Translations under genes and position numbers: made by a program
Shown: positions 5,243 to 59,548 of the stretch, in pieces
Numbering within the stretch: position 1 is the stretch's first letter
Layout of the letters: each line of letters begins with the position of its first letter
The notes under the pieces: generated by a model
Seen by the model: the letters and a program-made list of their open reading frames with translations, nothing else
Databases searched by the model: none
What the model was told of the DNA's origin: nothing
Assembly (NCBI RefSeq): GCF_026013645.1
Contig: NZ_CP110224.1
Span: 2,914,001-2,978,000 of the forward strand
Length of the DNA: 64,000 nucleotides
Source of the DNA: Virgibacillus natechei
Lineage (GTDB): Bacteria > Bacillota > Bacilli > Bacillales > Amphibacillaceae
Direction: 5' to 3'

Positions 5243-5272
5243 GGTGCCTGTCACTTCCCGGTTTTTGTCGAA
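5243..5272 (-). repeat. Short (30-bp) copy 1 of the GGCACC/TTCGAC repeat family
   Basis: It reads GGTGCCTGTCACTTCCCGG then TTTTTGTCGAA on the plus strand. It starts three bases after the stop of the YkvI-like gene. At 5285-5303 a partial inverted partner (GGGAGTGACAGGCAGGCAC) could pair with it as a long hairpin. Confidence 0.95.
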
Positions 5273-5418
5273 TGATTTTCTCAAGGGAGTGACAGGCAGG
5301 CACTGTTACGCGTTTATCTTATCCTTAATAGATTGGAGCTTCGGTTTTGTTTTATAGACAGCGGATCCTGGTGAGCACATAACATACTCGGTAGGAACAG
5401 CTGAACGAACACGGAACG

Positions 5419-5456
5419 AAAGCGCGACCCCATTGTAATCAGGAATCGCGCTCTCC
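5419..5456 (-). terminator. Hairpin downstream of YfmJ-like gene
   Basis: AGCGCGA (5421-5427) pairs with TCGCGCT (5446-5452). Read on the minus strand the hairpin lies just past the stop of the oxidoreductase, but the T-run is short (CTTTCG). It is a possible weak terminator. Confidence 0.4.
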
Positions 5457-5460
5457 ACCA

Positions 5461-6465
5461 TTATTCAATCTCAGATACTTTCACAATTGCTTTTCCTAAG
5501 TTTGCGCCTTGGAAGAGGTCAAGAAAGGCCTCAATTGTTTGATCGAATCCTTCTGTTACGGTTTCTTCATATTGTATTTTCCCTTCCTGATACCATCCTG
5601 CTAGCGCTTGTGAGCCTTCTTTGAACCCGGAGGCATAATCCCCAACGGTGAATCCTTGCATCAATGCACTCGTTTTAATCAAGTAGCCTTGAACACGCAG
5701 TCCCTTATCCGCTTCTTTATTATTATAAGCCGAAATCGCTCCGCACACAGGGATACGTGCGAATTTATTTAGTAGTGGCAGTACGGCCTCCCCGATTTCA
5801 CCACCAACATTTTCAAAGTACACATCAATTCCATCTGGGCATGTATTACGAAGTGCAGTTCCCACGTCCTCTGTTTTATAATTTATTGCTGCATCAAATC
5901 CGAGCTCCTTTTTAAGGTAAGCAATTTTTTCATCCGAACCTGCAATCCCAACGACGTGAGCACCTTTTACCTTGGCGATTTGCCCGACAACTGAACCAAC
6001 AGCACCTGCTGCGCCTGATACAACAACTGTTTCCCCTTCTTGCGGCTTCCCGATATCCAAGAGTCCAAAATAAGCGGTTAGCCCTGTCATGCCTAATACA
6101 CTTAAGTAGGCAGAAGCTGGCGCGAGCTTCGTATCAATTTTACGAATTTCAGATTCTTTTGCCACTGAATATTCCTGCCAGCCGAGTGAGCCTGTAACGA
6201 CATCATTTTTCTCAAACTTCGGCGATTTTGATTGGACAACTTGACCAACCACACCACTGGTAATGACGGAGTCCAGCTCGAATGGTGCAACATAAGATTT
6301 CGCATCATTCATTCTCCCTCTAAGGTAAGGATCAACCGAGATATAGGTTGTCTTAACAAGTACTTCCCCTTCCTCCGGCTCACCAACCGGTACATGAGCA
6401 AATTCGAAATCCTCTTTTGATGGTGTACCAACTGGCCTTCTCACAAGTTTAATTTGTTTTTGCAT
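5461..6465 (-). CDS. yfmJ: NADP-dependent medium-chain oxidoreductase, YfmJ/CurA-like
   Basis: About 334 residues; zinc-free MDR family related to leukotriene B4 12-hydroxydehydrogenase, 2-alkenal reductase and CurA. The N-terminus has the QIKLVRRPVGTPSKEDFE pattern of the family. A Rossmann nucleotide site (VSGAAGAVGSVVGQIAK) lies near residue 150. By family it reduces C=C bonds of enals or enones with NADPH; the physiological substrate is unknown. The ATG at 6474 is too close to the Shine-Dalgarno GGGAGAGG, so the in-frame ATG at 6463-6465, with ~9-nt spacing, is the better start. It is monocistronic and bracketed by two copies of the 30-bp repeat. Confidence 0.9.
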   Translation of the reverse strand: MQKQIKLVRRPVGTPSKEDFEFAHVPVGEPEEGEVLVKTTYISVDPYLRGRMNDAKSYVAPFELDSVITSGVVGQVVQSKSPKFEKNDVVTGSLGWQEYSVAKESEIRKIDTKLAPASAYLSVLGMTGLTAYFGLLDIGKPQEGETVVVSGAAGAVGSVVGQIAKVKGAHVVGIAGSDEKIAYLKKELGFDAAINYKTEDVGTALRNTCPDGIDVYFENVGGEIGEAVLPLLNKFARIPVCGAISAYNNKEADKGLRVQGYLIKTSALMQGFTVGDYASGFKEGSQALAGWYQEGKIQYEETVTEGFDQTIEAFLDLFQGANLGKAIVKVSEIE

Positions 6466-6502
6466 ACGAATCATCCTCTCCCCTGGGAAGGTGCCTTGGG
6501 AA

Positions 6503-6532
6503 GGTGCCTGTCACTTCCCGAATTTTGTCGAC
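6503..6532 (-). repeat. Short (30-bp) copy 2 of the GGCACC/TTCGAC family, with duplicated outer edge
   Basis: It reads GGTGCCTGTCACTTCCCG then AATTTTGTCGAC; the terminal box is TGTCGAC, not TGTCGAA. Directly outside, TGGGAAGGTGCCT occurs twice in tandem (6484-6496 and 6497-6509), duplicating the GGTGCC edge. Confidence 0.93.
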
Positions 6533-6599
6533 GAATCAGGCCCCTAAAATTTATTTTTTAAGAAAACTGAGCATTTGTTAAAGGGATTCTTATGAAAGC

Positions 6600-6778
6600 G
6601 TTCTGTGCTTTCTTAGGCAGCTAATTCTTACTGCATAAGTGCGGGCTTTGTCTATCGCCATTAAAAGATTGGCGATAAGCCAAGTTTTCTAAAAACCCTT
6701 ATGCTTTGGAGTGCAAGCCTTGAGACAATGCCTTAGTTGCGCTTATGCGAATAGGAAATTTTTATACTTTTCTATTTT
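6600..6778. repeat. Composite of hairpin-type dispersed repeats (TTGGCGATAAGCCAA / TGCCTTAGTTGC family)
   Basis: This 180-bp intergenic block holds a hairpin TTGGCGATAAGCCAA at ~6670. It also holds a copy of TGCCTTAGTTGCGCTTATGC (6729-6748) followed by a stem AATAGGAAA/TTTTCTATT, and an inverted copy of CTTACTGCATAAGTGC (~6628-6643). The same modules recur at 20671-20730 and at 26362-26441, where one interrupts a gene. The hairpin end overlaps the stop codon of the acetyltransferase gene. Confidence 0.75.
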
Positions 6779-7221
6779 TCCATGAAAACGAAAACCGTGT
6801 CTTCAAAATCGAGCTTCTCTGTTTTATATCTTTTATAACCAAGTTTTTCATACAAAGCGATATTTTTTGTTGAAAGGCTTCCAGTGAATAGTCTATAGAT
6901 TACATCAGTGAAATATGTTTCGATTTCCTCCATTAAAATTCTCGCAATACCTCGGTTTTGATAATCTGGATGTACCATGAGTCTGTTCACATGACATTCC
7001 CCATTCTCTTCATAGGCTCTAACGGAACCAACAACTTTTCCATCTTCAACATATTTTAGTACCACATTTTTTTCAAATGACGCCATGGTTGATGTAATTT
7101 CCTCTTTTAATGGCATAATTTCATAATCATTGTATATTGCCGCTTCACTGAGAAAAGCGCGCTTTTGTAAATCTAATATGTCACTTGCATCTTCCTGCCT
7201 AGCTCGTTCAACCGTTGCCAA
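6772..7221 (-). CDS. GNAT-family N-acetyltransferase
   Basis: 149 residues if started at TTG 7219-7221 (reading ATVERARQEDASDILDLQKR), which follows GAGAGGAAGA. An in-frame ORF extends to 7344, but its extra residues look non-coding and lack a ribosome binding site. The acetyl-CoA loop appears as HPDYQNRGIARILMEEI and the C-terminal GNAT strand as IALYEKLGYKRYKTEK. The substrate is unknown. The last bases lie inside a hairpin repeat, so the tail (TVFVFMEK) may have been modified by that insertion. Confidence 0.82.
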   Translation of the reverse strand: MATVERARQEDASDILDLQKRAFLSEAAIYNDYEIMPLKEEITSTMASFEKNVVLKYVEDGKVVGSVRAYEENGECHVNRLMVHPDYQNRGIARILMEEIETYFTDVIYRLFTGSLSTKNIALYEKLGYKRYKTEKLDFEDTVFVFMEK

Positions 7222-7415
7222 TAACCATCTTCCTCTCCAGTGTGTATTTACGCTTCCTTTCATTCTACACGTATTAGGAAATGGGATGCAATTTTGGTGG
7301 TTGGGAACAATAAGGCGACATGTGTTACTTACCCAGTAGAACACCTTTTAGAGTCTAGAGGCATACAGTTCGCTAGCCCGATTCGTTCTGTATGTGCCGA
7401 GTGATTTTCGTTCGA

Positions 7416-7455
7416 TTCGACACAATATGACATAAACCGGGAAGTGACAGGCACC
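7416..7455 (+). repeat. Long (40-bp) copy 3 of the GGCACC/TTCGAC family
   Basis: TTCGACACAATATGACATAA is followed by ACCGGGAAGTGACAGGCACC. It ends 22 bp before the DUF389 gene start, so its transcript leader would contain the repeat. Confidence 0.93.
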
Positions 7456-7477
7456 AAAAGCGAGAGAGGGATGCAGT

Positions 7478-8467
7478 ATGGCTTTACAGTTGCTTGAAAT
7501 TTATGCCCAAAAGCAGTTATTTGATATCGAAAGTATTCAGCGTGAATTTTCTGTTGTCTCCTATTGGATTGCTGATGAAACAGAAGAAAAGAGGCATACG
7601 CGAATTCTTGTAGAGACCAGTGATTCAGAAGAAATTCTTAATTATTTTGAAGAGCTAATTGGTGATGCGGACGCTTATCAGGTCATGTTATTGCCTGTAA
7701 AAACATACCTTCCTCGAGAGGAGGATGAAGAAGAGAACGATGAAAGCAAAGAAAAGGAACTGCAACGAGCTAGCAGGCATGAATTATATACAGCGGTTGA
7801 GGAGTCAAGTAAGATGAGTATCAGTTATATGTGGTTTATCTTTTTTTCCGCCGTTGTTGCTACGGGTGGAATTATAAAGAACAGTCCTGCCATCGTTATT
7901 GGAGCAATGGTGATTGCCCCTATTATTGGGCCAGTAACTGCTGTTTCATTCGCTTCTATTCTCGGGGATTTCAAGTTAATACGCAAAGCTACATATACAT
8001 CTTTATTTGGTATCGGACTTCCTATATTTGTTGCTGCTTTATTTGGATTTTTCTTCAATCCGCCTATTTACAGTGATGAATTTCTCGCACGTACAGACGT
8101 TCAAATTATCGATGTTATTGTGGCGCTCGCTGCTGGTGCTGCTGGGGCACTTTCCTTTGTTAAACGGAATGAAGGAGCACTTGTGGGGGTAATGGTTTCG
8201 GTCGCTTTACTACCACCAGCTGTCGTATTTGGTATGACGCTTGGTGCAGGTGATTGGGAAGCAGCGATCGTCCCATTTATTCTAACACTGGTTAATGTTA
8301 ATTCAATCCTCCTCTCTGCTGTCGTCGTTTTTTGGTTAAGTGGCATTAAACCAGTAAACTGGCAAGAATTACAACAGGCTGATAGCTCGCGTAAGTATTC
8401 GCTCTTGTTTATTTCCATCATATGTATTGTACTTATCACGGCGATCATTTTTATAAACTTCGTTTGA
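7478..8467 (+). CDS. DUF389 / TIGR00341-family membrane protein
   Basis: 329 residues. The N-terminal ~110 residues are soluble and acidic, ending in a charged linker (EEDEEENDESKEKE). They are followed by six or so TM segments with the family signatures GGIIKNSPAIVIGAMVIAPI and GDFKLIRKA and a glycine/alanine-rich helix ALAAGAAGALSF. The function of the family is unknown; conserved glycine/proline helices suggest a transporter or channel. ATG 7478 is preceded by GAGAGAGGG at proper distance. It is a single gene between two 40-bp repeat copies. Confidence 0.9.
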   Translation: MALQLLEIYAQKQLFDIESIQREFSVVSYWIADETEEKRHTRILVETSDSEEILNYFEELIGDADAYQVMLLPVKTYLPREEDEEENDESKEKELQRASRHELYTAVEESSKMSISYMWFIFFSAVVATGGIIKNSPAIVIGAMVIAPIIGPVTAVSFASILGDFKLIRKATYTSLFGIGLPIFVAALFGFFFNPPIYSDEFLARTDVQIIDVIVALAAGAAGALSFVKRNEGALVGVMVSVALLPPAVVFGMTLGAGDWEAAIVPFILTLVNVNSILLSAVVVFWLSGIKPVNWQELQQADSSRKYSLLFISIICIVLITAIIFINFV

Positions 8468-8503
8468 TGTATTGTAAGGGTTAGGAGTCCTCCCCCTCTT
8501 CAG

Positions 8504-8543
8504 TTCGACAAAAAGTGATAAAAAGCGGGAAGTGACAGGCACC
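8504..8543 (+). repeat. Long (40-bp) copy 4 of the GGCACC/TTCGAC family
   Basis: TTCGACAAAAAGTGATAAAA is followed by AGCGGGAAGTGACAGGCACC. It lies between the DUF389 gene and the following hypothetical gene, about 35 bp upstream of that gene's ribosome binding site. Confidence 0.93.
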
Positions 8544-8590
8544 CCAAACAACGATATAATGGATGTTAAGAAAGTATAGGGGAGTGGAAT

Positions 8591-9016
8591 GTGATGACCG
8601 AAGTGAACTTTGATTTTTTTACAAATTTGACCAATAGTGCCGATATTTCAGAAAGAGAACGATATAAGCCTTTAGTAGATATCATTAATACGTATATCGG
8701 AATAGAAAACATAGAAATATTTTACCCGAAATTTTTATTTGTTAATGATAGGAAATTAATGATTTTCGTTTTCCAACAAGAACAGGTTAGTGTCATAAAA
8801 GAAGTAGAAGATACTACTATTTCTTTAACCACCTTTAAATATAACAATTTAAAGGTAAGTGAAATTTATTATACTGGAGCCGAAGAGCCCGTAACATTAA
8901 AACTTGATTTCAACACTGGCGAATTCTTTCGACTAAACAACCAAACAGATACAAACAATACATGGACGGATCATTTTAAAAATAAAATTACAGCTATTTA
9001 TAAATTAATAACATAA
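8591..9016 (+). CDS. Hypothetical cytoplasmic protein
   Basis: 141 residues, AT-rich, no signal peptide or TM segment. The start is GTG-ATG in tandem after AGGGGAG, so either codon could serve. The sequence alternates short beta-like stretches (LMIFVFQQEQVSVI, KVSEIYYTGAE) and ends with an amphipathic helix. I do not recognise the family. The ORF has normal coding character and ends six bases before a 30-bp repeat copy. Confidence 0.7.
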   Translation: MMTEVNFDFFTNLTNSADISERERYKPLVDIINTYIGIENIEIFYPKFLFVNDRKLMIFVFQQEQVSVIKEVEDTTISLTTFKYNNLKVSEIYYTGAEEPVTLKLDFNTGEFFRLNNQTDTNNTWTDHFKNKITAIYKLIT

Positions 9017-9021
9017 GGGTC

Positions 9022-9072
9022 GGTGCCTGTCACTTCCCGGTTTTTGTCGAAACCAAGAAGTGACAGGTGCAC
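9022..9072 (-). repeat. Short (30-bp) copy 5 of the GGCACC/TTCGAC family plus inverted half, downstream of the RAYT gene
   Basis: The repeat proper is 9022-9051 (GGTGCCTGTCACTTCCCGG then TTTTTGTCGAA). An inverted half GAAGTGACAGGTGCAC follows at 9057-9072, so the pair can fold into a ~14-bp stem, like a REP doublet (BIME). It lies 54 bp past the 3' end of the RAYT gene. Confidence 0.94.
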
Positions 9073-9125
9073 GGGCTGAATCCACCCTGTTTTATGGCCA
9101 ATTGTATCTCCGGTAAAAACAGTTG

Positions 9126-9689
9126 TTAATCAGTGTCCCTTTTCTCCTCGACAAACTCCCGATATTGCCACTGCTTCTCCTTTACACTTCCCGAAAAGCA
9201 ATCCAGAACAGTGCCCACCTCTAACAAGTAATTATCCTTGGAATTCAAGTAAAACTGGTAGCTACTCCAGGCGTAACTTTCTGGTCTTGGCACCATACCC
9301 GCTTCCATAGGGTTAAGATGAATATAACGGCTCACTTCCAACATGTCTTCTTGAGAATAAATGATTTTGGCAAAAAATCGCTTCTCAAACACATGCCCTG
9401 TTATGCCATTTTTCGTATTATAATAATCAGCATATCGTTTGTTTAGGAGCGACATCACTTTAGAAATGGGTTGGTTCTGGGAACGAATTTGTAGGTGAAA
9501 GTGGTTAGTCATTAAGCAATAGGAAGCAAGTTCAAATGGAATTTTCTCATTGATTGACGCTAGCATTTGAAGAAAGATAGTATAATCATACTCGTCTTTG
9601 AAAAGGAATTCACGCCGATTACCGCGGCTAATAACATGGTAAAACGAATCAGGAACCCAAATACGTTTCTTTCTAGGCAATAGCATCAC
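9126..9689 (-). CDS. REP-associated tyrosine transposase (RAYT), Y1-transposase family
   Basis: 187 residues. The N-terminal SFYHVISRGNRREFLFKDE is diagnostic of the IS200-like Y1 domain. The HUH metal motif is HFH in YCLMTNHFHLQIR, and the candidate catalytic tyrosine is in EVSRYIHLNPMEAG. RAYTs bind, cleave and are thought to disseminate REP hairpins flanking their own gene. This one is flanked by copies 5 (9022-9072) and 6 (9865-9894) of the local repeat, and most other copies cluster within 9 kb. It starts at ATG 9687-9689; the region just upstream (GGGGGTGATGCT) gives the ribosome binding site. It looks intact. Confidence 0.93.
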   Translation of the reverse strand: MMLLPRKKRIWVPDSFYHVISRGNRREFLFKDEYDYTIFLQMLASINEKIPFELASYCLMTNHFHLQIRSQNQPISKVMSLLNKRYADYYNTKNGITGHVFEKRFFAKIIYSQEDMLEVSRYIHLNPMEAGMVPRPESYAWSSYQFYLNSKDNYLLEVGTVLDCFSGSVKEKQWQYREFVEEKRDTD

Positions 9690-9864
9690 CCCCTTTTTTG
9701 TGTTTTGTATTCTTGTAACTAGAAGATCAATCTCAGATTATATCGTTCACGGCAGAAAATCAAGATCGTATATTGCCATTTTACATTCACAAAATCCTCG
9801 CAACTAGAGGGGAAACGGAATTTTGTCTCCTATTTTGAAACAAAAATGAAAGAATCCGAGGGGG

Positions 9865-9894
9865 AGTGCCTGTCACTTCCCGTTTTTTGTCGAA
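9865..9894 (-). repeat. Short (30-bp) copy 6 of the GGCACC/TTCGAC family, upstream of the RAYT gene
   Basis: It reads AGTGCCTGTCACTTCCCGT then TTTTTGTCGAA. It lies 176 bp 5' of the RAYT start codon, completing the flanking pair around that gene. Confidence 0.93.
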
Positions 9895-10001
9895 TATATA
9901 CGTTTTAGGTTTAGTAGGTAAATAGTCTTAATCCGAGCACAAACTTGACTACATATGGTAATATTATGGTGTTCATTATATATTTCATAGGAGGAATTTT
10001 T

Positions 10002-10532
10002 TTGAAAAAACTAGTGTTTATCATGATAAGTTTCCTATTTATTTTAACTGCATGTGGTGAAGATAATGCTGTAGAAGTCACACTTCCAGCTTCGTTCATG
10101 GAAGCAGAAGAAATAGATATCGATTCGTTAACTGCTGATAGTGAAGAATCTGGAATTGAAGATGTAACCGAAAATAGCGATGGATCGGTTTCGTATGAAA
10201 TGTCGGGATCCAAGCATGAGGAAATGATGACGGAGATTGAAAGCGAAGTCAACAACTCTATTGAAGAGATCGCGGACAACGAAGAATATGCTTCCATTCA
10301 AGATATAACTTCCAGCAACTCATTTTCTGAGTTTACCATGCTCGTAGATCAAGAGACATTCGAAAATAGTTTTGACGGATTTGCAGCAATGGCCCTTGGT
10401 GTCAGTGGTATGTTCTACCAATTATTTGATGGCACAGATGCAGATGACTATGCCGTGACCATCTCTATAGAAAATGCTGACACTGGTGAAGTTTTTGATA
10501 CGCTCCATTATCCAGAAGACCTAGACGGCTAA
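10002..10532 (+). CDS. Small acidic lipoprotein of unknown function
   Basis: 176 residues from TTG 10002, chosen because AGGAGG at 9989-9994 precedes it; an in-frame ATG at 9945 would put the signal sequence internally. The signal peptide KKLVFIMISFLFILTAC ends in a lipobox (LTAC), so the mature protein is lipid-anchored at Cys18. The rest is strongly acidic (EAEEIDIDSLTADSEESG) with no recognised domain. Acidity fits surface proteins of halotolerant Bacillaceae. Confidence 0.8.
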   Translation: MKKLVFIMISFLFILTACGEDNAVEVTLPASFMEAEEIDIDSLTADSEESGIEDVTENSDGSVSYEMSGSKHEEMMTEIESEVNNSIEEIADNEEYASIQDITSSNSFSEFTMLVDQETFENSFDGFAAMALGVSGMFYQLFDGTDADDYAVTISIENADTGEVFDTLHYPEDLDG

Positions 10533-10541
10533 ATTGCAGAA

Positions 10542-11192
10542 CAAAAGCGCAAGCGCCCGTTTAGCAACGTACAAACTGCGCTCAGCGCTGCGAGTGGTTC
10601 AACGTTGCCACGCAAAGTGGCGGTTTTAGTTGAACTTCCACTGCCACAATGAGATTAGATGAACTTGACTTATCTCCAATAATGGAGAAAGTCAAAGTGA
10701 ATCTTATGCTTGGAAAGCGAAAAGGAAACATGCCCCATCATAGGGGTATGCCGACGCCTGAGCGCAAGCCCGGTTTTAGTCGGCCTTCCTTAAAACAAGT
10801 GAGTCGATGTTGACTTTCACCACAGGGCATAAGTGCGACTAAGCATCTGGCAGAGCCAATCGGCAAGTCTTCTTTTCACCCACAGGGCATAAGTGCGACT
10901 TTACTTCTGCCTACGCCTCCGGCTTGGCAATCAGTAAGTCTTCTTTTCACCCACAGGGTATAAGTGCGACTTTACTTCTGCCTACGCCTCCGGCTTGGCA
11001 ATCAGTAAGTCTTCTTTTCACCCACAGGGTATAAGTGCGACTTTACTTCTGCCTACGCCTCCGGCTTGGCAATCAGTAAGTCTTCTTTATCGTAGTGGAG
11101 GTGTGTGAAGTTTGATAGTTGCTGGGCGCTGGAGCTGGACGTGGCTATTCCAGTGTATAAGTTATCCACAGCTTTTAAATTCTATAGTTTCC
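10542..11192. repeat. Large dispersed intergenic repeat, copy A (expanded)
   Basis: The block starts AAAAGCGCAAGCGCCCG and ends in GGGCGCTGGAGCTGGACGTGG followed by TTATCCACAGC and ATTCTATAGTTTCC. A second, shorter copy lies at 22523-22855 with long identical stretches (for example GATTAGATGAACTTGACTT and AAGTGAATCTTATGCTTGG). Copy A carries an extra ~65-bp segment and a tandem amplification. It is interrupted by the IS4-family element, after which 12742-12753 resumes the sequence. The AAGCGCAAGCGCC/GGCGCTGGAGC ends are typical of a Bacillaceae intergenic element. No coding capacity was seen. Confidence 0.85.
10881..11093. repeat. Tandem array, three copies of a 71-bp unit
   Basis: Units begin at CACAGGG(C/T)ATAAGTGCGAC at positions 10881, 10952 and 11023, exactly 71 bp apart and nearly identical. 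A diverged 60-bp relative starts at 10821. Copy B at 22.5 kb has only one (short-type) unit, so the array is a local expansion. Confidence 0.93.
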
Positions 11193-13513: not shown

Positions 13514-13553
13514 TTCGACAAAATGCGCTAAAAACCGGGAAGTGACAGGCACC
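13514..13553 (+). repeat. Long (40-bp) copy 7 of the GGCACC/TTCGAC family, overlapping a stop codon
   Basis: TTCGACAAAATGCGCTAAAA is followed by ACCGGGAAGTGACAGGCACC. The minus-strand VanZ gene terminates inside it: its last seven residues (CLSLPGF) and TAG stop are repeat sequence. Confidence 0.95.
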
Positions 13554-13992
13554 TACCTACCCGAGCTACTAGCCAATACACGCCAATTCCTACAGCGGTT
13601 CCGGCGGTATCGATGAGCACGTCTCTTACTTCCCCGCTTCTTCCGGGGATAAATAGCTGGTGCACTTCGTCTGAGATAGCATAGAGTACACCTATCAAAA
13701 GCGCCGTTATCATGCACCTATATCCACGCATACCGCTTCTCCTTAAGGCGTTCATGACAAGTATCCCAAGTACCAAATAGGCAAAGAAATGTGCATTTTT
13801 CCTCACGAAATGGTTAAGGTTACTTAAATCTAGATTTAAATTCGGAGCCATGCTCTCAACTGTTGTGATGATCGTGTTTGTTATTCCTGTACTCAGTTCG
13901 TTCGACTGGGTTGCTGGTTGATGGGAAAAGTAAAACAGTAACCCCATCCAAAGACCAACAGCAGCCCAGGAAATCGTTTTTTTAAATGGCAT
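13528..13992 (-). CDS. VanZ-family membrane protein
   Basis: 154 residues with four TM segments. The conserved VanZ features are seen in NHFVRKNAHFFAYLVLGIL, SDEVHQLFIPGRSGEVRDVLIDTAG and the first TM (WAAVGLWMGLLFYFSHQPA). VanZ-like proteins can confer teicoplanin tolerance, but most chromosomal members have unknown roles. The final residues are supplied by a dispersed repeat (13514-13553), so the native C-terminus was replaced or extended. It starts at ATG 13992 after GAAAGGAACT. Confidence 0.9.
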   Translation of the reverse strand: MPFKKTISWAAVGLWMGLLFYFSHQPATQSNELSTGITNTIITTVESMAPNLNLDLSNLNHFVRKNAHFFAYLVLGILVMNALRRSGMRGYRCMITALLIGVLYAISDEVHQLFIPGRSGEVRDVLIDTAGTAVGIGVYWLVARVGRCLSLPGF

Positions 13993-14011: not shown

Positions 14012-14051
14012 GGTGCCTGTCACTTCCCGAGTTTTGTTATATTTTGTCGAA
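14012..14051 (-). repeat. Long (40-bp) copy 8 of the GGCACC/TTCGAC family
   Basis: GGTGCCTGTCACTTCCCGAG then TTTTGTTATATTTTGTCGAA. It sits between the divergent VanZ and N-hydroxylase genes, about 20 bp 5' of the VanZ start codon. Confidence 0.93.
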
Positions 14052-15599: not shown

Positions 15600-15629
15600 T
15601 TCGACAAAACCCGGGAAGTGACAGGCACT
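15600..15629 (+). repeat. Short (30-bp) copy 9 of the GGCACC/TTCGAC family
   Basis: TTCGACAAAA followed by CCCGGGAAGTGACAGGCACT. Its GGCAC edge is tandemly duplicated just outside (see 15622-15675). Confidence 0.93.
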
Positions 15630-15675
15630 TCTAGCTAACAGGCACTTCTAGCTAACAACAGGCTCTCCTAGCTAA
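15622..15675. repeat. Triplicated 17-bp edge of repeat copy 9
   Basis: CAGGCACTTCTAGCTAA occurs at 15622-15638 and 15639-15655. A variant CAGGCTCTCCTAGCTAA is at 15659-15675 and overlaps the stop codon of the small membrane protein gene. Confidence 0.92.
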
Positions 15676-17428: not shown

Positions 17429-17468
17429 GGCGCCTGTCACTTCCCGATTTTTAGCCCATTTTATCGAA
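17429..17468 (-). repeat. Long (40-bp) copy 10, diverged at the box
   Basis: GGCGCCTGTCACTTCCCGAT then TTTTAGCCCATTTTATCGAA. The terminal box is TATCGAA, so the Spo0A-like TGTCGAA is lost in this copy. Confidence 0.88.
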
Positions 17469-18010: not shown

Positions 18011-18040
18011 TTCGACAAAAAACGGGAAGTGACAGGCACC
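18011..18040 (+). repeat. Short (30-bp) copy 11, with duplicated edge leading into a ribosome binding site
   Basis: TTCGACAAAA followed by AACGGGAAGTGACAGGCACC. The edge CAGGCACCCAAAAAGGA is present twice (18033-18049 and 18051-18067), and the second copy runs directly into the AGGAGGTGA site of the next gene. Confidence 0.94.
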
Positions 18041-18072
18041 CAAAAAGGAACAGGCACCCAAAAAGGAGGTGA

Positions 18073-22522: not shown

Positions 22523-22855
22523 CAAAAGCGCAAGCGCCCGTTTAGCAATGTACAAACTGGAGCACTCCGCAATGAGATTAGATGAACTTGACTTATCGCC
22601 AGTAGTGGCGAAAGTCAAAGTGAATCTTATGCTTGGAAAGCGAAAAGGAAACACGACAAACGAAGTGAGTCGATGTTGACTTTCACCACAAGGGTATAAG
22701 TGCGACTAAGCCTCTGGCAGAGCCAATCGGCAAGTCTTCTTTATCGTAGTGGAGGGGTGTGAAGTTTGATAGTTGCTGGGCGCTGGAGCTGGACGTGGAT
22801 ATTCTGGTAACCAAGTTATTCACAGCATTTAAATTCTATAGTTTCCTATGCAGAA
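22523..22855. repeat. Large dispersed intergenic repeat, copy B (unexpanded)
   Basis: Shares its ends and most of its body with 10542-11192: AAAAGCGCAAGCGCCCG at the left; GGGCGCTGGAGCTGGACGTGG, TTATTCACAGC and ATTCTATAGTTTCC at the right. It lacks the 71-bp expansion and the IS4 element, so it represents the ancestral form. Confidence 0.85.
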
Positions 22856-22904: not shown

Positions 22905-22934
22905 TTCGACAAAAACCGGGAAGTGACAGGCACC
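22905..22934 (+). repeat. Short (30-bp) copy 12 of the GGCACC/TTCGAC family
   Basis: TTCGACAAAA followed by ACCGGGAAGTGACAGGCACC, a consensus copy. It lies between the 3' end of the symporter gene and its terminator hairpin. Confidence 0.95.
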
Positions 22935-24204: not shown

Positions 24205-24646
24205 CTCCCGACACGTTGCCTCAATTCGGTTGGTCGAGTGTGAACGCGCTGTCCGAGGATGTGCCGAATTGAGCCTAAGTCGCTCGAATGAGGCAATCTC
24301 CCGCTCGCTCGAGCACCAGCACTCCTAAGTCGAGCGAGAGGATGGCCAGGTCGAGCGCCACCTCTATGAGTTCGAGCACCAGACTTCAAAATTGTCACTA
24401 CCGCTCGAGTGGGGCACCTACTCGCTCGAGTAGAAGCTTTCGCCGCTCGAGTGAGGCAATCTCCCGCTCGCTCGAGCACCAGCACTCCTAAGTCGAGCAA
24501 GAGGATGGCCAGGTCGAGCGCCACCTCTATGAGTTCGAGCACCAACTTCAAAATTGTCACTACCGCTTGAGTGGGGCACCCACTCGTTCGAGTAGAAGCT
24601 TCCGCCGCTCGAGTGAGGCAATCTCCCGCTCGCTCGAGCACCATTT
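24205..24646. repeat. GC-rich 21-bp-periodic TCGAG array nested in ~162-bp tandem repeats
   Basis: Two near-identical higher-order units start at GAGGCAATCTC (24290, 24453) and a partial third at 24615 (163 and 162 bp apart). Within each unit, TCGAG recurs mostly every 21 bp (for example TCGAGCGAGAGGATGGCCAG, TCGAGCGCCACCTCTATGAG), with one 33-bp and one 25-bp step. ORFs on either strand are low-complexity by-products without ribosome binding sites. Composition is far more GC-rich than the flanks. Confidence 0.9.
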
Positions 24647-36374: not shown

Positions 36375-36404
36375 TTCGACAAAAACCGGGAAGTGACAGG
36401 CACC
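36375..36404 (+). repeat. Short (30-bp) copy 13 of the GGCACC/TTCGAC family
   Basis: TTCGACAAAA followed by ACCGGGAAGTGACAGGCACC, a consensus copy. Only 8 bp separate it from the GGAGG of the MenC-like gene, so it lies in the immediate leader. Confidence 0.95.
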
Positions 36405-43913: not shown

Positions 43914-43953
43914 GTTTTTCGCAAATCTATTTTATACCAGTTTCTATGCTTCA

Positions 43954-43989
43954 CGTGGTTCGAGAGCATCCCACGAAAAAAAACTAAGG
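43954..43989 (+). ncRNA. preQ1 class I riboswitch
   Basis: CGTGGTTCGAGAGCATCCC, ACG, then AAAAAAACTAAGG. The P1 stem (CGTGG/CCCACG), the loop bases and the A-rich tail with ACTAAGG fit the preQ1-I consensus. The tail merges with the SD of queT (AAGGAGAGG), so it would control translation. The downstream gene is a preQ1 transporter candidate, which agrees. Confidence 0.9.
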
Positions 43990-44001
43990 AGAGGTTTAAA
44001 A

Positions 44002-44597: not shown

Positions 44598-44661
44598 AAG
44601 TCATTTCACAAACGAAACCTCTGGGGACAAGGAACCTGTCCCCTCGTCCCAATTGGCAGTA

Positions 44662-44691
44662 TTCGACAAAAACCGGGAAGTGACAGGCACC
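44662..44691 (+). repeat. Short (30-bp) copy 14 of the GGCACC/TTCGAC family
   Basis: TTCGACAAAA followed by ACCGGGAAGTGACAGGCACC, a consensus copy, 8 bp beyond the 3' end of the MFS gene. Confidence 0.95.
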
Positions 44692-46078: not shown

Positions 46079-46374
46079 TAGATTTTCCTTCCCTCCTAAA
46101 AGGATGACATAACCCCCGAGAAATATTACCTGTAAGGCGAAGAACATCGTCTGCATATCCGTGAGCATCACACGAAAGCCTATAGAAAAAGGAAGCAAGA
46201 AAACCATCCACCCTCGAGAAGGTTACACATCATTTTACACCTATCAGCTATCATAACAATCTTCTTACCCTTTTGTAAGAGTTATTATTCATGGAAAGAA
46301 GGTAAAAGGTATCTACTCACGCTGGATTGGATGATGAACCTCTGTCGTTCATCGTCTTAAAATAGTGAAAATGC

Positions 46375-46644
46375 CCGCGAGCGCGGGATAAACATGGAAG
46401 AGCGCGGAACGAATGCCCGTGACCGCGGGATCAACATGCGGGAGCGCAGGACGAATGGCTGCGTACGCGGGATGAACAGGCGGGTGCACGGGGCAAATGA
46501 CTGCGAGCGCGGGATGAACAGGCGGGAGCGCGGTACGAATGACTGCGTGCGCGGGATAAACAGCGGGAGCGCAGTACGAATGACTGCGAACGCGGGATGA
46601 GCAGGCGGGAGCGCGGTACGAATGACTGCGAGCACGGGATGAGA
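46375..46644. repeat. GC-rich array of thirteen ~21-bp units (GAGCGCGG core)
   Basis: Units such as CGCGAGCGCGGGATAAACAT and CGGGAGCGCGGTACGAATGA recur every 21 bp (one unit 20). Two types alternate (…GATGAACAGG / …TACGAATGAC), giving a 42-bp higher-order period. The block is about two-thirds GC in AT-rich flanks. Both strands show open heptapeptide-repeat frames merely because 21 is divisible by 3; neither has a ribosome binding site. Confidence 0.92.
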
Positions 46645-50823: not shown

Positions 50824-50842
50824 TTGCATGTTCTACTCCGCT

Positions 50843-50952
50843 CTTATTTCTCAAGAAAATAAATTTTCTTGCTGGATGTAGCACCTTTCTGACAAAGTCA
50901 GAGGTTGCTGAAGCGTCAACGGGCCAATTCCCTCGACTTCTCTGAATAAGAA
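50843..50952 (-). ncRNA. SAM-I (S-box) riboswitch upstream of the monooxygenase operon
   Basis: Minus-strand conserved parts in order: CAGAGAAGTCGAGGGAA, TTGGCCCGTTGACGC, TTCAGCAACCTCTGACT, AAGGTGCTACATCCAGCAAG, then a closing strand GAGAAATAAG. These match the SAM-I consensus. Confidence 0.95.
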
Positions 50953-52006: not shown

Positions 52007-52024
52007 GAGTAACAACTTAATAAT

Positions 52025-52130
52025 TCTTATCCAGAGAAGTCGAGGGTTCTGGCCCAATGACACTTCAGCAACCATTGACGAAAGTCGAAAAGGTGCTAAT
52101 TCCAGCAAAATTATTTTTGGGAGATAAGAG
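52025..52130 (+). ncRNA. SAM-I (S-box) riboswitch upstream of metQNI
   Basis: Conserved segments in order: CCAGAGAAGTCGAGGGTTC, TGGCCCAATGACACTTCAG, CAACC, AAGGTGCTAATTCCAGCAAA, closing strand GAGATAAGAG. The sequence tracks the other S-box at 50.9 kb and the SAM-I consensus. Confidence 0.95.
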
Positions 52131-52146: not shown

Positions 52147-52180
52147 CCCCTCTTTTCTCTTATGGAAAAGGGGGTTTTTT
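52147..52180 (+). terminator. S-box-controlled terminator before metQNI
   Basis: CCCCTCTTTTC pairs with GAAAAGGGGG, followed by TTTTTT; directly downstream of the aptamer. Confidence 0.88.
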
Positions 52181-52414: not shown

Positions 52415-52519
52415 GATCATTTTCACCATGTCGCCCCTAAATTGCAAAACCGTGGTCTTTTCCGAACAGACTATGAAGGAAATACACTCAGGGGCCACCT
52501 CGACTTAGATTATCCAAAC
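52415..52519 (+). pseudogene. Relic of an NtaA-type FMN monooxygenase C-terminus
   Basis: An in-frame stretch reads [20 protein letters not shown] then [15 protein letters not shown]. The pattern VxPxLQxRGLFRTxYEGxTLRxHL is the usual C-terminus of NtaA/SnaA/DszA monooxygenases. A stop codon precedes it in frame and no start exists. It lies between the S-box terminator and metQ. Confidence 0.75.
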
Positions 52520-52621
52520 GTTGCATTAAGACAAATGTTTAAATGCAACTATAAGAGAATGTGAGATAACCAATTCCACTCACTAAAAAATATCAAAAGG
52601 GAAACGTAAAGGAGTGTAAAA

Positions 52622-54511: not shown

Positions 54512-55173
54512 TGAATCGATCGGATGAACTGATCACGTTATTTTCGTTGTCTTTATATGAAACAACCCTAATGGTAATCATTCCACTTGTTATTGCAACA
54601 ATTATTGGTATACCGTTAGGCGTTCTACTTGTCATAACAAGGCCTAATCACCTTAGTCCAAACAAATGGTTGTTTCATATTTTAAATACAATTATTAATA
54701 TCATTCGGTCGGTTCCATTTATTATCCTAATGCTAGCTATTATTCCATTTACCGAATTGATTGTAGGCACATCCATCGGAATTCAGGGAGCAATTGTCCC
54801 TCTTATTGTTTACATCGCTCCATATATTGCTAGACTTATTGAAACAACGCTACTTGAAGTAGATCATGGTATTATTGAAGCTTATCGGGGGATGGGCGCT
54901 TCCCGTACACAAATTGTCACTCGTATAATCATAAGAGAAGCACGACCTGGAATTTTACTTTGTATGACAATTGCCCTCATTGGTTTAATTGGTGCTACAG
55001 CCATGGCAGGGGTAATTGGAGCAGGAGGACTCGGTGACCTAGCTCTTAGGTATGGCTATCAACAATGGGATTTACCCGTCATGTTCGGTACAGTTATCAT
55101 TTTAATTGTACTCGTTCAAATTGTTCAAACCCTTGGAAATTATGCTGCAAAGAAAATGAAGAAAACGGCATAA
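54508..55173 (+). CDS. metI: Methionine ABC transporter permease
   Basis: 221 residues with five TM helices. The EAA-type cytoplasmic loop reads EAYRGMGASRTQIVTRIII, and AGVIGAGGLGDLALRYGYQQ is the MetI-like end. It forms the membrane channel with MetN. It overlaps metN by ATGA and so is translationally coupled. The last gene of the operon. Confidence 0.95.
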   Translation: MMNRSDELITLFSLSLYETTLMVIIPLVIATIIGIPLGVLLVITRPNHLSPNKWLFHILNTIINIIRSVPFIILMLAIIPFTELIVGTSIGIQGAIVPLIVYIAPYIARLIETTLLEVDHGIIEAYRGMGASRTQIVTRIIIREARPGILLCMTIALIGLIGATAMAGVIGAGGLGDLALRYGYQQWDLPVMFGTVIILIVLVQIVQTLGNYAAKKMKKTA

Positions 55174-55314
55174 TTAAAACTTCATTCAGTGGGAGTGAAT
55201 GCAGCTTTGTATGTACAGCCGGTTAAAGCAAAAGGGGTATACGATAAGTAGAAAATCATATCCTAAAAAAACCGAATGGTATTCAGTTTAAGGGCGCAGA
55301 TCATATTGTACGTA

Positions 55315-55359
55315 GGAATCACTCTAATGCTTGGCTAGGCCATAGAGTGGTTCCTTTTT
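55315..55359 (+). terminator. Terminator of metQNI
   Basis: GGAATCACTCTA pairs with TAGAGTGGTTCC (one G-T), followed by TTTTTG; about 140 bp past metI. Confidence 0.85.
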
Positions 55360-55381
55360 GTACGTTTATATCTTTTAAGTG

Positions 55382-55520
55382 CTAAACAAAGGCTGGCTTC
55401 AGCGATTTCCTCAGCCTGTCCAGCGCAACATATGCGGTATTATTTGGTTGAGGGCGGAACCCGCTTACAGAAGAAATATTAACAATAGACCCACCACCAC
55501 CTTGCTCAATCAGGATAAGG
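55382..55520 (-). pseudogene. Relic of a short-chain dehydrogenase
   Basis: The minus-strand frame reads LIEQGGGGSIVNISSVSGFR then PQPNNTAYVALDRLRKSL and a TAG. The GGSIVNISS segment is the SDR strand carrying the catalytic serine, and TAYVA stands where YxxSK should follow. The Rossmann half upstream and the YxxxK region are gone, so it is a fragment. Confidence 0.6.
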
Positions 55521-55548
55521 TACCTGCTCTGCGTCCTCGGTCTAAACC

Positions 55549-56772
55549 TTACTCCTCTGTCAATTTCTTCGCTGCTTCATATAATACCGTAGCACCACGG
55601 GCTAAATCTTCTGTACTTGTGAATTCGTCTGGGGAATGGCTGATCCCATCTTTACTTGGCACCAAAATTAGTCCCACATCCGTAACATCGGACAGGACCA
55701 TTGCATCGTGGCCAGCCCCACTTTTCATCGTAGAATGAGGAACATCCAAATCATCACTTACTTCTGCAAGCAAGGAACGAATAGCTGGATTTAAGGCTTT
55801 TGGCTCGATATATAATGATTGTTCTACGGACGTTTGAATACCATTTCCATTATAGGAAGCGACTAATTCTTTCACCTTATTAACCACGTTCAAGACCTTT
55901 TCCGCCTTACCCGAACGAATATCTACTGTGAAGTAAACGTTATCTGGTATAACATTCGCACCATTTGGCGAAACTTGAACGCGACCGACCGTTGTAACCG
56001 TACCATCGCCTTCATCGATTGCAAATTGCGGAAGCTTCGAAATGATAGTGGTAGCCGTAATCAATGCATCTGAGCGGCGATCCATTGGCGTTGTTCCTGC
56101 ATGACCAGCGATCCCTTTTATTGTGACTTCCAATTGGGTCAATCCCACAATCGATTGTACAACCCCAATTGGTACGTTACTTTCTTCTAAAAGAGGCCCT
56201 TGTTCAATGTGCATTTCCAAAAATGCCTTCATTGTCGAAGGATCACGGTAGACAGGTTTGGAAGCATCCAATCCAGCATTCGACATTGCTTCGGTTACAG
56301 AAATGCCATCACGATCCTTTTGATTTTTAAAATCCGCTTCATCAATCGAACCGACAATTCCTCTAGACCCCATAAGGCCACTGAAACGAGAACTTTCTTC
56401 TTCAATCATCGCAATGATTTCCAGTGGATATTTCGGTGTTATGTTATTTTCCTTAAATAATGCCGCTACTTCCAGACCTACAACAACACCGGCCGTCCCA
56501 TCATAAGCCCCACCATTTGGCACACTATCAAAGTGGGATCCAACAATAACACTTGGCCCATCTTTTAAGGTTCCTTCTAATTTTCCAAAGATATTTCCTA
56601 TCCCATCTTCTCGAACAAATAGACCATATTCTTCCATTTGTTCTTTTATATACTCGCGAGCTTGTAAATCTTCTTTGCTATACGTAAGCCTTGTCACGCC
56701 GTTTCCAGGTGTCGCTGTAAATGCACGAAGATCTTGAATATGGTTTTCGATACGCTTTTTGCTCATTGACAT
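55549..56772 (-). CDS. M20-family N-carbamoyl-L-amino-acid hydrolase / allantoate amidohydrolase
   Basis: 407 residues. Zinc-site motifs: VGSHFDSVPNGGAYDGTAGV (His and Asp), MIEEESSRFSGLMGSRGIVG (Glu pair), LEMHIEQGP (His) and the C-terminal MKSGAGHDAM. This is the hydantoinase/carbamoylase branch, which frees amino acids from N-carbamoyl derivatives or degrades allantoate/ureidoglycolate. It follows the membrane transporter gene by 47 bp in one operon, so transporter and enzyme may share a substrate pathway. SD GGAGG is ten bases before ATG 56772. Confidence 0.9.
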   Translation of the reverse strand: MSMSKKRIENHIQDLRAFTATPGNGVTRLTYSKEDLQAREYIKEQMEEYGLFVREDGIGNIFGKLEGTLKDGPSVIVGSHFDSVPNGGAYDGTAGVVVGLEVAALFKENNITPKYPLEIIAMIEEESSRFSGLMGSRGIVGSIDEADFKNQKDRDGISVTEAMSNAGLDASKPVYRDPSTMKAFLEMHIEQGPLLEESNVPIGVVQSIVGLTQLEVTIKGIAGHAGTTPMDRRSDALITATTIISKLPQFAIDEGDGTVTTVGRVQVSPNGANVIPDNVYFTVDIRSGKAEKVLNVVNKVKELVASYNGNGIQTSVEQSLYIEPKALNPAIRSLLAEVSDDLDVPHSTMKSGAGHDAMVLSDVTDVGLILVPSKDGISHSPDEFTSTEDLARGATVLYEAAKKLTEE

Positions 56773-56819
56773 TCTATTCTAACCTCCATTTAAATTTTGT
56801 TTTTTCTCTAAAGACCACC

Positions 56820-58013
56820 TTACAAGAACTCAACAAGCACCCCTGCTAGGACAACCGAAACAATTGTTACAGTGACGAATCCACCGACCAACATTGGTGG
56901 CAACATATGGCTGGTCAGGATTTCCCTTTCTTCCTCATCATCAGATAATGAATGAATGACTTCATTGGTAATAATATAGTCAGCTGGGAATCCGTACAAG
57001 GCTGTTAACGATACTGCAAATGCCATTTCCTTACTTACTTTTAGTATTTTTCCGGCAATAAATGAAAAAACATACATACCAGCTACACCAAGTACAATGC
57101 TTCCGATGAGAATAAAGATGATATCCATCATCATACTTGGTGTTGCATTTTTTAGCCCATCAAGAATATACAACATCAGTACAAGCATAGCTAAACCGAA
57201 ACCATTTGCTTTTTGTAATACTTGCTTTTCTAGAAAACCAACATGTGCTGCAACAACCCCAAATATCAAACAGAGTACAAGTGGACTGATGGATACAACA
57301 GGTTCCAATAGAGTTGATACAAGATAGGCTAAATAACTAACAACTGCCAACCGAAAGAATTTAAAGTAACTAGTATTGTATTTTCCCGGTAAATTTTTGA
57401 AAAGCTTTAGCTCTGTTTCTTCTGGCTCTACCGTTTCTGCAGTTGCTGCCATTTCCTTCTTAGCTAAATTCCCATTACGATATAACCCAAGAAGTCGCTT
57501 CCCTTCTTTCTTTAACATTAATGATGTTAACGGATAGCCTGCAAAACCTTGCATCACGTACACAACAATAGCAAACACGGACAAGCTCACAAGCCCTGCA
57601 TCTGCTGCACCTTCTGACATAATTAATGCAGAAACCAACCCACCAACCAATGGCGGAATTGCTACAATTACCGTTTCAATTCCAAACAATAGTGTTCCAA
57701 TACTTAATAGAATAACGATAGCACCTAATATTCCAGAAAGTGCAATAACGACCGTTTTCCATTGCTGTTTCAATTCATCTAAAGACAGCAATGTTCCCAT
57801 ATTCGTGATTAATAAATACATCATCATTGTCGCTACAACGGGCGGTACCCCTGCAGTAGCAACGATTTCTGTGGGGAAGAACGTCCAGTAACCCAATAGA
57901 AATAGAATCGCCGCAATAAAGATGGATGGCACCCAAGCTTTCGTCCTTACAGCGATAAAATCTCCTATAAATAGAATAAAAACAATAATAACTAATGCTA
58001 GCATTTGTGACAT
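56820..58013 (-). CDS. Integral membrane protein, probable transporter, operon with amidohydrolase
   Basis: 397 residues with about ten to twelve TM helices and a charged cytoplasmic linker in the middle (residues ~175-205). The halves look like inverted repeats, as in GltS-like or bile-acid-type carriers. Segments IPPLVGGLVSALIMSEGAAD and ALYGFPADYIITNEVIHSLS could hold substrate or ion sites. I do not recognise a named family with certainty. Coupling with an M20 amidohydrolase suggests uptake of its substrate. Confidence 0.7.
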   Translation of the reverse strand: MSQMLALVIIVFILFIGDFIAVRTKAWVPSIFIAAILFLLGYWTFFPTEIVATAGVPPVVATMMMYLLITNMGTLLSLDELKQQWKTVVIALSGILGAIVILLSIGTLLFGIETVIVAIPPLVGGLVSALIMSEGAADAGLVSLSVFAIVVYVMQGFAGYPLTSLMLKKEGKRLLGLYRNGNLAKKEMAATAETVEPEETELKLFKNLPGKYNTSYFKFFRLAVVSYLAYLVSTLLEPVVSISPLVLCLIFGVVAAHVGFLEKQVLQKANGFGLAMLVLMLYILDGLKNATPSMMMDIIFILIGSIVLGVAGMYVFSFIAGKILKVSKEMAFAVSLTALYGFPADYIITNEVIHSLSDDEEEREILTSHMLPPMLVGGFVTVTIVSVVLAGVLVEFL

Positions 58014-58386
58014 ATGATCCCCACCATTTCCCTCTCTAATTAATACAACATATTATAGCAACTAAGCTCTTTAATTGAAAGAACATTTTCATTCTATTAA
58101 ATTAAATGTAATTTTAATTATTGTATTATTCGTTTCACTTGAAAAAGGGGGATTTATACGTTTGTTATCTCCTCGTTCGACAATGTAATGCGTTGCTACT
58201 AGCAGTTCCTGGATGCACTTGGGAGAATCGTTTTTAAAAGGGAATTACAGTTCTGTTTATTGGAACAAAAAACACCTACCAGTCTCGGTAAGTGCATGTA
58301 CTTGGGTTTGCAGTTTAATTTTCCATTCTAGCTTTTTGATATTTGTTCTTCTTCATCTAAAATGCATTGATCTCTCCCCAGATAGT
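58014..58386. other. 373-bp intergenic stretch, promoter of transporter operon
   Basis: Very AT-rich DNA beyond the transporter start (58020-58140), consistent with a promoter. No RNA motif was recognised. A 60-codon plus-strand frame at 58213-58395 has no ribosome binding site and no family likeness. Confidence 0.5.
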
Positions 58387-59238
58387 TTACCCTGAATAAC
58401 CATTCACAAAAAACGCTATTGTTTCGACTTCCATTTCGTTTAATTCCCTTCTCAAATACTTGGACAGTTCTGCAGCTATCGACTTGTAGTCCCCGTTATA
58501 TTTTTCTGTAAAGTAACCTATCTTTTTTAACAATTGGAGAAAAGCTTGGAATTCCGACTTGTTTAACGGTTCGTTGTGATGAGACAGGAAAACAATTTCC
58601 GCATCGTATTCTTCCATTCGCTCAATAAGTTTGAGCGTTATGTCAATCGTATAATTCCATTTGTCAGCGTAAAGATTTGCATACAGACAATCTCCCAGAA
58701 AAAGTACTTTCTCCTCTGGAATATAGATGATACTAGAATCATTTGAGTGATCGCCACCTACATGTTCGATGACACAGGTAAGTCCGCCTAAATTCAACTT
58801 CATTCGCGTTTCAAATTGGATATCCGGATCTAGCAAGGTAATATCCCGATCATTTCCCAACTCCTTCTTGATGGCATCTGCACAAAACGGAATTTCTAAG
58901 CCTGCTTTCACACGTTGATCTAGCGGGCCATCTTCCCATGACAATTCCTGTAATTGTTTAATTCCGTTATACGTCATCTTGTTGGAAATAATTGGAATTT
59001 TCATTTCACTCATGCCAAATACATGATCCCAGTGCCAATGCGTCAACACGAGCCAGTTCCCCTTAACAGACCGCTCCTCCAGTTGATCAAGAAACAATTT
59101 TGCATGACTGGAAGAATTTCCAGCATCAATGAGTACTGTTTTTTCGTCACCTACAACCGCCCCCAGAATAGGACGATCCGTTTCCTGGTATGGTGGTAAA
59201 TAATATATCCGGTTAGAAATTTGTTTTAATTACTGCAT
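58387..59238 (-). pseudogene. Metallo-beta-lactamase-fold hydrolase with stop at codon 3
   Basis: The frame encodes a complete MBL fold: ISNRIYYLPPYQETDRPILG and TVLIDAGNSSSHAKLFLDQL, then the metal motif LTHWHWDHVFG (HxHxDH), GGDHSNDSS and FLGDCLYANLY. The natural start appears to be ATG 59236-59238 (AGGGG seven bases upstream), but codon 3 is TAA, where CAA would restore the ORF. Starting at TTG 59097 instead would lose the first ~47 residues including core strands. It is thus probably silenced by one C-to-T change, or weakly translated from a non-standard start. Confidence 0.7.
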
Positions 59239-59508
59239 ACCTATTCCCCTGACTAGATTTATTTTAAGGCTGAACCCATATTAAAAATATGTTTATCTAA
59301 AGACTTCCTCCATAAGACTATTATAATTCGTCGTTGATTTATTTAAAATCCCTTAAGGATATCAAAATTTTATTGGCCATATCCTTCTTGAAGGGGCGTA
59401 TTGATTGTTTTATAAAATGCTTTTGATATAGAAGTACTAGCTTCAATAGTAACAAAATAATCAAGACCTGCGTTATTTCCCTTCACATTATCTCCTACCA
59501 AACCCTCA

Positions 59509-59548
59509 TTCGACAAAAATCACCAAATACCGGGAAGTGACAGGCACC
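59509..59548 (+). repeat. Long (40-bp) copy 15 of the GGCACC/TTCGAC family
   Basis: TTCGACAAAAATCACCAAAT followed by ACCGGGAAGTGACAGGCACC, 118 bp upstream of the amidase gene. The remainder of 59239-59665 is AT-rich without a gene. Confidence 0.93.

Follow-up and report, generated by a model that had tools for sequence, protein, structure and literature searches.

A short sequence recurs fifteen times, in lengths of either 30 or 40 bp, in a 64,000-nucleotide stretch of the Virgibacillus natechei genome (bases 2914001-2978000 of a single contig of 3,867,590 bases); this whole stretch is called the window here, and coordinates refer to it unless given as genome positions. The repeat family is real, widespread and non-random, and the repeats are the ends of an element of the REP/RAYT type, named after repetitive extragenic palindromic (REP) sequences and the REP-associated tyrosine transposase (RAYT), with an unusual array of 10-bp boxes beside the conserved core. 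The fuller interpretation, to which we give a probability of roughly 0.7, is that this is a mobile element of Bacillaceae-like bacteria, that its RAYT would cut and copy the ends, and that the boxes would form an array bound by protein as duplex DNA.

Searching the window with the 18-mer CGGGAAGTGACAGGCACC and permitting three mismatches gives 15 matches, each with no or one mismatch (shuffled sequences give a mean of 0.01). Aligning these copies bears out what had been noticed earlier from the letters of the window alone, namely nine copies of 30 bp, six of 40 bp and none of intermediate length, with 11 of the 15 concentrated between 5 and 18.1 kb. For this sequence-only reading a sharp distribution of spacer lengths genome-wide would support helical phasing, and such a distribution is found: CGACA-N{0,30}-GTGACAGGCAC has 50 matches in the genome, all 50 with a gap of 11 (34 copies) or 21 (16 copies), and none in the reversed control. 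When no box is required, GGGAAGTGACAGGCACC with three mismatches permitted matches the whole genome (3.87 Mb) 60 times, 49 times with at most one mismatch (reversed control, five), and CGACA stands at gap 11 or 21 in 46 of these 49 cores, the three without an in-phase CGACA being at genome positions 1457480, 2721255 and 2931429. The CGACA-spacer-core pattern occurs in 58 of 156 genomes sampled from the family (reversed control 0), with up to more than 100 copies per genome, and in 98 of 397 genomes sampled from the order, a sample that includes the own genome and other family members and in which the reversed control gives at least two matches. Spacers are not continuous across the order either: among the 150 matches listed, which include no more than ten per genome and in which four nested box pairs are counted twice, the gap is 1 in 14, 11 in 112 and 21 in 23, which makes 149, and 24 in one. 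Among 298 distinct cores from relatives, CGACA lies at gap 1 in 10, at gap 11 in 177 and at gap 21 in 86, five other gaps occur once each, and the 45-50 bases covered show no peak at gap 31. The matches that the genome scan lists from unrelated phyla are without boxes. The claim of exactly two lengths holds for the own genome, with its 34 short and 16 long copies, but relatives have a third form of 20 bp.

The element end consists of one to three 10-bp boxes and a fixed end, giving forms of 20, 30 and 40 bp. In relatives the consensus of the long form is TTCGACAAAA-TTCGACAAAA-TTCGGGAAGT-GACAGGCACC, with weak positions written as the commonest base, and in their 20-bp form, TTCGACAAGT GACAGGCACC, the box abuts the core; at one related locus (L087) there are three CGACA boxes spaced 10 bp apart. 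What had been described as an added step of pattern N6-AAAA is actually a degenerate second copy of TTCGACAAAA, as is clear in relatives.

A transposase gene lies among the clustered copies. It encodes a RAYT/TnpA-REP-like HUH Y1 transposase of 187 amino acids (P0001; 9126-9689, minus strand) with the motif NHFH at residues 62-65, and the only Pfam domain found in it is PF01797 (Y1_Tnp; 51.6 bits, above the cut-off). Its AlphaFold2 model (predicted local distance difference test, pLDDT, 89) is a plain Y1 fold with short C-terminal helices and no added DNA-binding domain, and its best PDB match is 4er8, by its title a REP-associated tyrosine transposase on a REP hairpin. Two copies, at 9022 and 9865, flank the gene in direct orientation. 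Thirty RAYT loci were examined (29 from relatives and the own one), and in 24 of them a core-like match, meaning one with at most two mismatches, lies within 700 bp of the gene or overlaps the open reading frame (ORF), although two of these (L083 and L084) are weak matches without boxes. In eight of the 29 relatives' loci (L060, L065, L071, L073-L076 and L087) the repeats form an outward-facing inverted pair, with the boxes toward the gene and CACC outward. A homologue of P0001 at E<=1e-20 is present in 158 of 295 genomes, and within the family sample at least five repeat matches occur in 28 of the 40 genomes with a RAYT homologue at E<=1e-50, versus 4 of the remaining 116 (Fisher p=2e-17, related genomes not being independent). 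The same repeats flank RAYT homologues and their abundance follows the close homologue; they are thus ends that belong to a RAYT element. The accessible parts of PMC3733652 describe REPtron and TIRtron arrangements in which repeats likewise form the ends around a RAYT-like gene. At L034, another Y1 transposase locus, the flanking repeats are ACCTGTCCC.

Copies are clustered, often around the transposase gene. In the own genome 11 of the 49 cores that have no more than one mismatch are found less than 9 kb away from it, and in two other genomes, chosen as complete listings showing clusters, 12 of 23 matches (G107) and 11 of 20 (G012) lie within about 21 and 19 kb of the respective RAYT gene; G084, also complete, is less clustered. 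The nearest neighbour is closer than 5 kb for 33 of the 50 own copies, against a mean of 5.9 under uniform placement. Near copies are also more alike in sequence than far ones (p=0.0001 for long, p=0.0096 for short copies), but not in length class, which agrees in 49 of 90 near pairs (p=0.56) and so shows no clustering along the genome. When the left flanks are aligned from the element outward, a score of at least 11 is reached by 11 of the 1,225 own pairs, the random scores having their 99% point at 6 and their maximum at 9, and the best pairs share 15 to about 80 bases; two of the 11, genome positions 1466229/2973511 and 2958664/3013329, are weak and not neighbours. The same alignment on the right gives five own pairs that score 11-13 over long stretches, which we read as noise or as echoes of the 3' end (see below). 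Since left flanks are shared without comparable homology on the right, the CACC end is a defined, sharp end. Orientation is uneven as well, 37 of the 50 own copies pointing against the replication fork (p=0.0009, uncorrected for clustering, with the origin assumed next to dnaA, at genome position 1069, and the terminus opposite), a bias that suits a single-strand mechanism tied to replication; according to the accessible text of PMC6006769, IS200/IS605 members target the lagging-strand template. Empty sites, which had been proposed as a further check, are less clear. For the copies at 18011 and 22905 no recognisable copy is present in the two syntenic same-genus regions, but divergence leaves the junction undefined, and the five places aligned between G069 and G084, whose blocks are mostly 90-96% alike, show no clean empty site.

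The core itself is a poor hairpin. Its stem is 3 bp long (GTG/CAC), 223 of 304 copies have an A.C mismatch directly after it, and no longer hairpin was seen in the 304 copies compared, energy folding being outside the analysis. An inverted partner core with at most two mismatches lies within 150 bp upstream of 38 of the 298 related elements, so that singles predominate, and one relative (locus L078) has near-perfect palindromes. The earlier view that the repeat is not simply a hairpin is supported by the 3-bp stem, but the inverted partners and the palindromes of L078 do not fit it. Several copies are followed directly by 3' echoes, that is the AGGCACC end with some flank bases repeated in tandem, as at 15630-15660 and 18041-18060 and at genome positions 2740486 and 3301399. 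AGGCAC or CAGGCA occurs in the same orientation within 60 bp downstream of 35 of the 298 elements, in six cases as part of a whole further core, compared with 1 of 298 in opposite orientation and 0 for the reversed string; upstream of the 298 elements the counts are 11 and 23. The distance from CAC to echo is mostly 5-13 bases, and the echoes may be traces of slippage at the CACC end or of its being cut repeatedly. Other variants concern the upstream side. At L117, L169, L188 (Mesobacillus harenae) and L178 (Salirhabdus) the same core is found with GTGAAACAAGATTA in place of the TTCGACA boxes, some of these copies having a second GTGAAACA-like stretch upstream. At genome positions 3301378-3304976 and 3363121-3366243 copies are clustered with an upstream inverted repeat GCCTGTCCCTCGCT...AGCGATGAGGGACAGGC or as a tail-to-tail core pair, and these composite neighbours look like mosaic REP elements.

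RAYT-type enzymes are known as single-strand enzymes, and we propose the following sequence of events. The element end is a tandem of one to three boxes (TTCG-ACA-AAA), of which the core-proximal one reads TTCGGGAAGT or TTCGACAAGT, with GACAGGCACC after it. The transposase encoded at 9126-9689 would act on single-stranded DNA, cutting and joining it at the sharp CACC end, and would copy the end together with a variable left-hand flank, often to a place no more than some kb from its own gene. Spaced by one helical turn, the boxes would form a duplex-binding array, probably for a host protein because the transposase model has no extra DNA-binding domain; helical spacing in several families, together with the lack of an added transposase domain, suggests such a duplex-binding partner. 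Bound to the boxes, the host protein may recruit the transposase or time its action, and box number would change by gain or loss of whole 10-bp units. The earlier proposal was of a protein bridging both conserved halves, and a row of boxes with one monomer each would fit as well. Fixed spacing alone is no proof of a bridging protein, because perfectly conserved distances are also reported for Pseudomonas REPINs in the accessible part of PMC3116915.

A number of observations weigh against this interpretation. The only NCBIfam match of P0001, NF047646 (REP-associated tyrosine transposase), has 73.1 bits and is below the cut-off of 80. No inverted left end was found within the 700 bp searched around the own RAYT gene, 6 of the 30 RAYT loci have no core within 700 bp or overlapping the ORF, and 12 of the 40 family genomes that encode a close RAYT homologue do not reach five matches. 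Of the 298 relatives' cores, 44, chance matches in other phyla included, have no CGACA within 50 bp upstream. The orientation counts are not independent, the copies being clustered. Recent movement was not seen between G069 and G084, and movement in this pair is slow or past because the five aligned copies are common to both. Canonical REPs combine a GT[AG]G foot with a good hairpin, classes 2.6 and 3 being without the foot (PMC6006769, as far as its accessible text goes), and unlike them the element consensus has no such foot and only the weak 3-bp stem. Finally, the 10-bp steps could be a matter of counting units, with no helical need behind them.

This last point leads to the explanation that the steps reflect nothing but amplification together with tandem units of 10 nt being gained and lost, without any constraint on phase and without a duplex binder, which we regard as doubtful. 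A step is one whole unit of the tandem box array and would therefore measure 10 bp even if phase were of no importance, clustered copies share subfamily sequence, and the REPIN distances mentioned above are perfectly conserved in another system. The sharp spacers fit the helical phasing proposed in the sequence-only reading, but unit gain or loss alone also gives steps of 10. Against mere counting stands the diversity of the spacers: 14 distinct sequences among the 34 short and 15 among the 16 long own copies, and 67 among 155 short and 85 among 86 long copies of relatives (their lengths being fixed by the grouping), with only the five off-phase gaps in the latter. So few other lengths across so many different spacer sequences suggest a constraint on the length between box and core. 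Orthologous copies agree with this but are too few to decide: of 22 copies aligned in two genome pairs, 15 were without a spanning alignment and seven were counted, and these have 29 substitutions and 0 indels from box to core (three gaps fall at the CACC end), where about two indels would be expected, compared with 210 substitutions and 16 indels in their flanks (1,355 aligned positions). It is also possible, though on the whole rather unlikely, that the reader of the boxes, in single-stranded or duplex form, is the RAYT and not a host protein. The abundance of the repeats tracks close RAYT homologues, the boxed form is found in several families of the order, and in the 20-bp form the boxes abut the core, all of which would suit such a direct reader; the plain Y1 fold with Y1_Tnp as sole Pfam domain does not, nor does the solved relative 4er8, which binds a REP hairpin.

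If a host protein is the partner, Spo0A comes to mind, and the boxes would then be Spo0A (0A) boxes, as one or two tandem sites, with mobility or an effect on neighbouring genes coupled to starvation; we consider this improbable. The box TTCGACA reads TGTCGAA on the other strand, which is the 0A core, contacted at G2, C4 and G5 and flanked by A/T according to the accessible text of PMC3485338. It is found exactly, at position 11 or 21, in 41 of the 49 own cores, and in 241 of 301 copies the distal box matches TTCGACA exactly, which tests the two T only as these copies were preselected for an in-phase CGACA. The long-form consensus of relatives has two 0A-like boxes in tandem, 10 bp apart, and in a co-crystal with abrB DNA tandem 0A boxes at 10-bp spacing reportedly suit a Spo0A dimer. 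All 58 repeat-bearing family genomes have Spo0A_C, but co-occurrence was rejected as support, being uninformative for a domain that is near-universal (153 of 156 family genomes). The second box, moreover, loses the contact positions, CGACA being kept there by none of the 16 long forms of the own genome and by 20 of the 86 from relatives. In most cases the core-proximal box carries GGG, the same core occurs with other upstream sequence in Mesobacillus and Salirhabdus, and a 7-mer match found post hoc carries a look-elsewhere cost. None of 13 other perfect TTTTTGTCGAA sites in the own genome is tied to a sporulation gene, neighbour functions not having been searched. Six of the TTTTTGTCGAA sites (L288-L291, L293 and L296) are near-identical copies of one context, perhaps rRNA operons, and three (L294, L298 and L299) adjoin variant or inverted cores such as GTGACAGGCACGCCCCGGTTTTTGTCGAA and are possible rearranged relatives of the element. 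The most elaborate version, in which Spo0A-box arrays stand in helical phase to the transposase cut end, starvation, replication state or spore entry sets the time of copying, and every insertion acts as a portable Spo0A site, would be a little less probable again. Very improbable indeed is the idea that ordinary duplication, and not a mobile element, has spread the copies and that they serve the host as regulatory sites such as operators. They are mostly intergenic and their box array is operator-like: 45 of the 50 genome copies lie between genes, two at gene edges and three with over half of their length in an ORF (ORFs being called crudely), while 70.5% of random positions fall in ORFs, so that the earlier description as strictly intergenic or at gene edges holds for all but these three. 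However, 28 copies point at the 5' end of a gene and 22 at the 3' end, which is no preference for gene starts. Tandem gaps hold 24 copies, convergent gaps 16 and divergent gaps 10, the numbers predicted from gap length being about 29, 10 and 11, and beyond this mild convergent excess no clear promoter or terminator preference appears among the 50 copies. The copies also follow the RAYT gene and have the sharp CACC end.

The individual copies in the window illustrate these properties. Of the copies of 30 bp, the one at 5243-5272 (minus strand) shows part of an inverted core some 16 bp upstream of the box, and that at 6503-6532 (minus) has a GTCGACA box and is followed by the 3' echo AGGCACC. 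Directly downstream of the RAYT gene, at the right-end position, lies 9022-9051 (minus), beyond which an imperfect inverted arm CAAGAAGTGACAGGTGCA is found at 9054 (plus); upstream of the gene and on the same strand lies 9865-9894 (minus), which has a CACT end. The remaining 30-bp copies are all on the plus strand: 15600-15629, with the tandem 3' echoes ACAGGCACT and TCTAGCTA; 18011-18040, with one echo; 22905-22934; 36375-36404; and 44662-44691, which adjoins a different repeat type, GGGGACAAGGAACCTGTCCCC. Another repeat type beside copies, GGGGACAAGGAACCTGTCCC, is seen at 44625-44660 and in the flank at genome position 3013340. The 40-bp copies are found at 7416-7455 (plus), with TATGACATAA as second box, at 8504-8543 (plus), at 13514-13553 (plus), at 14012-14051 (minus), at 17429-17468 (minus) and at 59509-59548 (plus). 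That at 13514-13553 overlaps the 3' end of a VanZ-like ORF (13528-13992, minus) and contains its stop codon, and that at 17429-17468 has TTCGATA and GGCGCC and falls outside the 50 CGACA-spacer matches. The exact 18-mer is also present in two viral contigs.

The window contains other repeats and features. A second dispersed repeat, partly in 71-bp tandem units, occupies 10542-11192 and 22523-22846, and a piece of it at about 10650-10865 has at least 13 matching places in a genome of the same genus (G001). Tandem arrays are located at 46354-46642 (unit about 42 bp) and 24272-24643 (about 162 bp), SAM riboswitches at 50841-50952 (minus) and 52024-52130 (plus), and a PreQ1 riboswitch at 43949-43993 (plus).

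One-turn spacing across many genera points to a duplex-binding partner that is absent from RAYT models, and the natural series of one, two and three boxes (20, 30 and 40 bp) makes such a partner directly testable. Clustering near the transposase gene and the single sharp end are clues to how REPs spread. If it were true that the partner is Spo0A, this would be a mobile element wired to the sporulation switch. The boxes do resemble the 0A boxes of Bacilli and Clostridia in the TGTCGAA core, the A/T flanks and the tandem 10-bp arrangement of the consensus, but differ from them in the degenerate second box, in the proximal box TCCCGAA and in sites that are not tied to sporulation genes. With IS200/IS605 elements the family shares the Y1 HUH fold and a fork-orientation bias as expected for lagging-strand targeting; unlike in those elements, the transposase is nearest to the REP type (4er8), copies are short and gene-less, and several relatives have inverted ends. 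TIRYT and TIRtron systems, in which a RAYT-like transposase is flanked by terminal inverted repeats (TIRs) that are also dispersed as singles and dimers (PMC3733652, accessible text), are similar too, and inverted flanking repeats of this type are seen at the eight related loci, the own locus having direct orientation. According to the accessible text of PMC6006769 and PMC3733652, TIRYT subclass 2.1, which comprises 20 of the 26 TIRYTs described, has a C-terminal helix-turn-helix (HTH), and a GGGGWSAS motif is common to many TIRs; P0001 has no HTH and the element consensus no GGGGWSAS. No description of this repeat family was found in the literature, most subscription journals being outside the scope of the search, and the 10-bp box array is not described in the accessible text of PMC3116915, PMC3733652, PMC6006769 and PMC8266576. 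The closest likeness is to REP/RAYT systems, REPtrons and REPINs, which are also short, mostly extragenic and present in many copies, with a Y1 HUH gene beside the same repeats, some head-to-head inverted pairs and composite neighbours. Unlike in REPINs, singles predominate here, and what sets the element apart from known REP/RAYT systems is that its copies cluster round the RAYT gene and carry a 10-bp box array beside the core.

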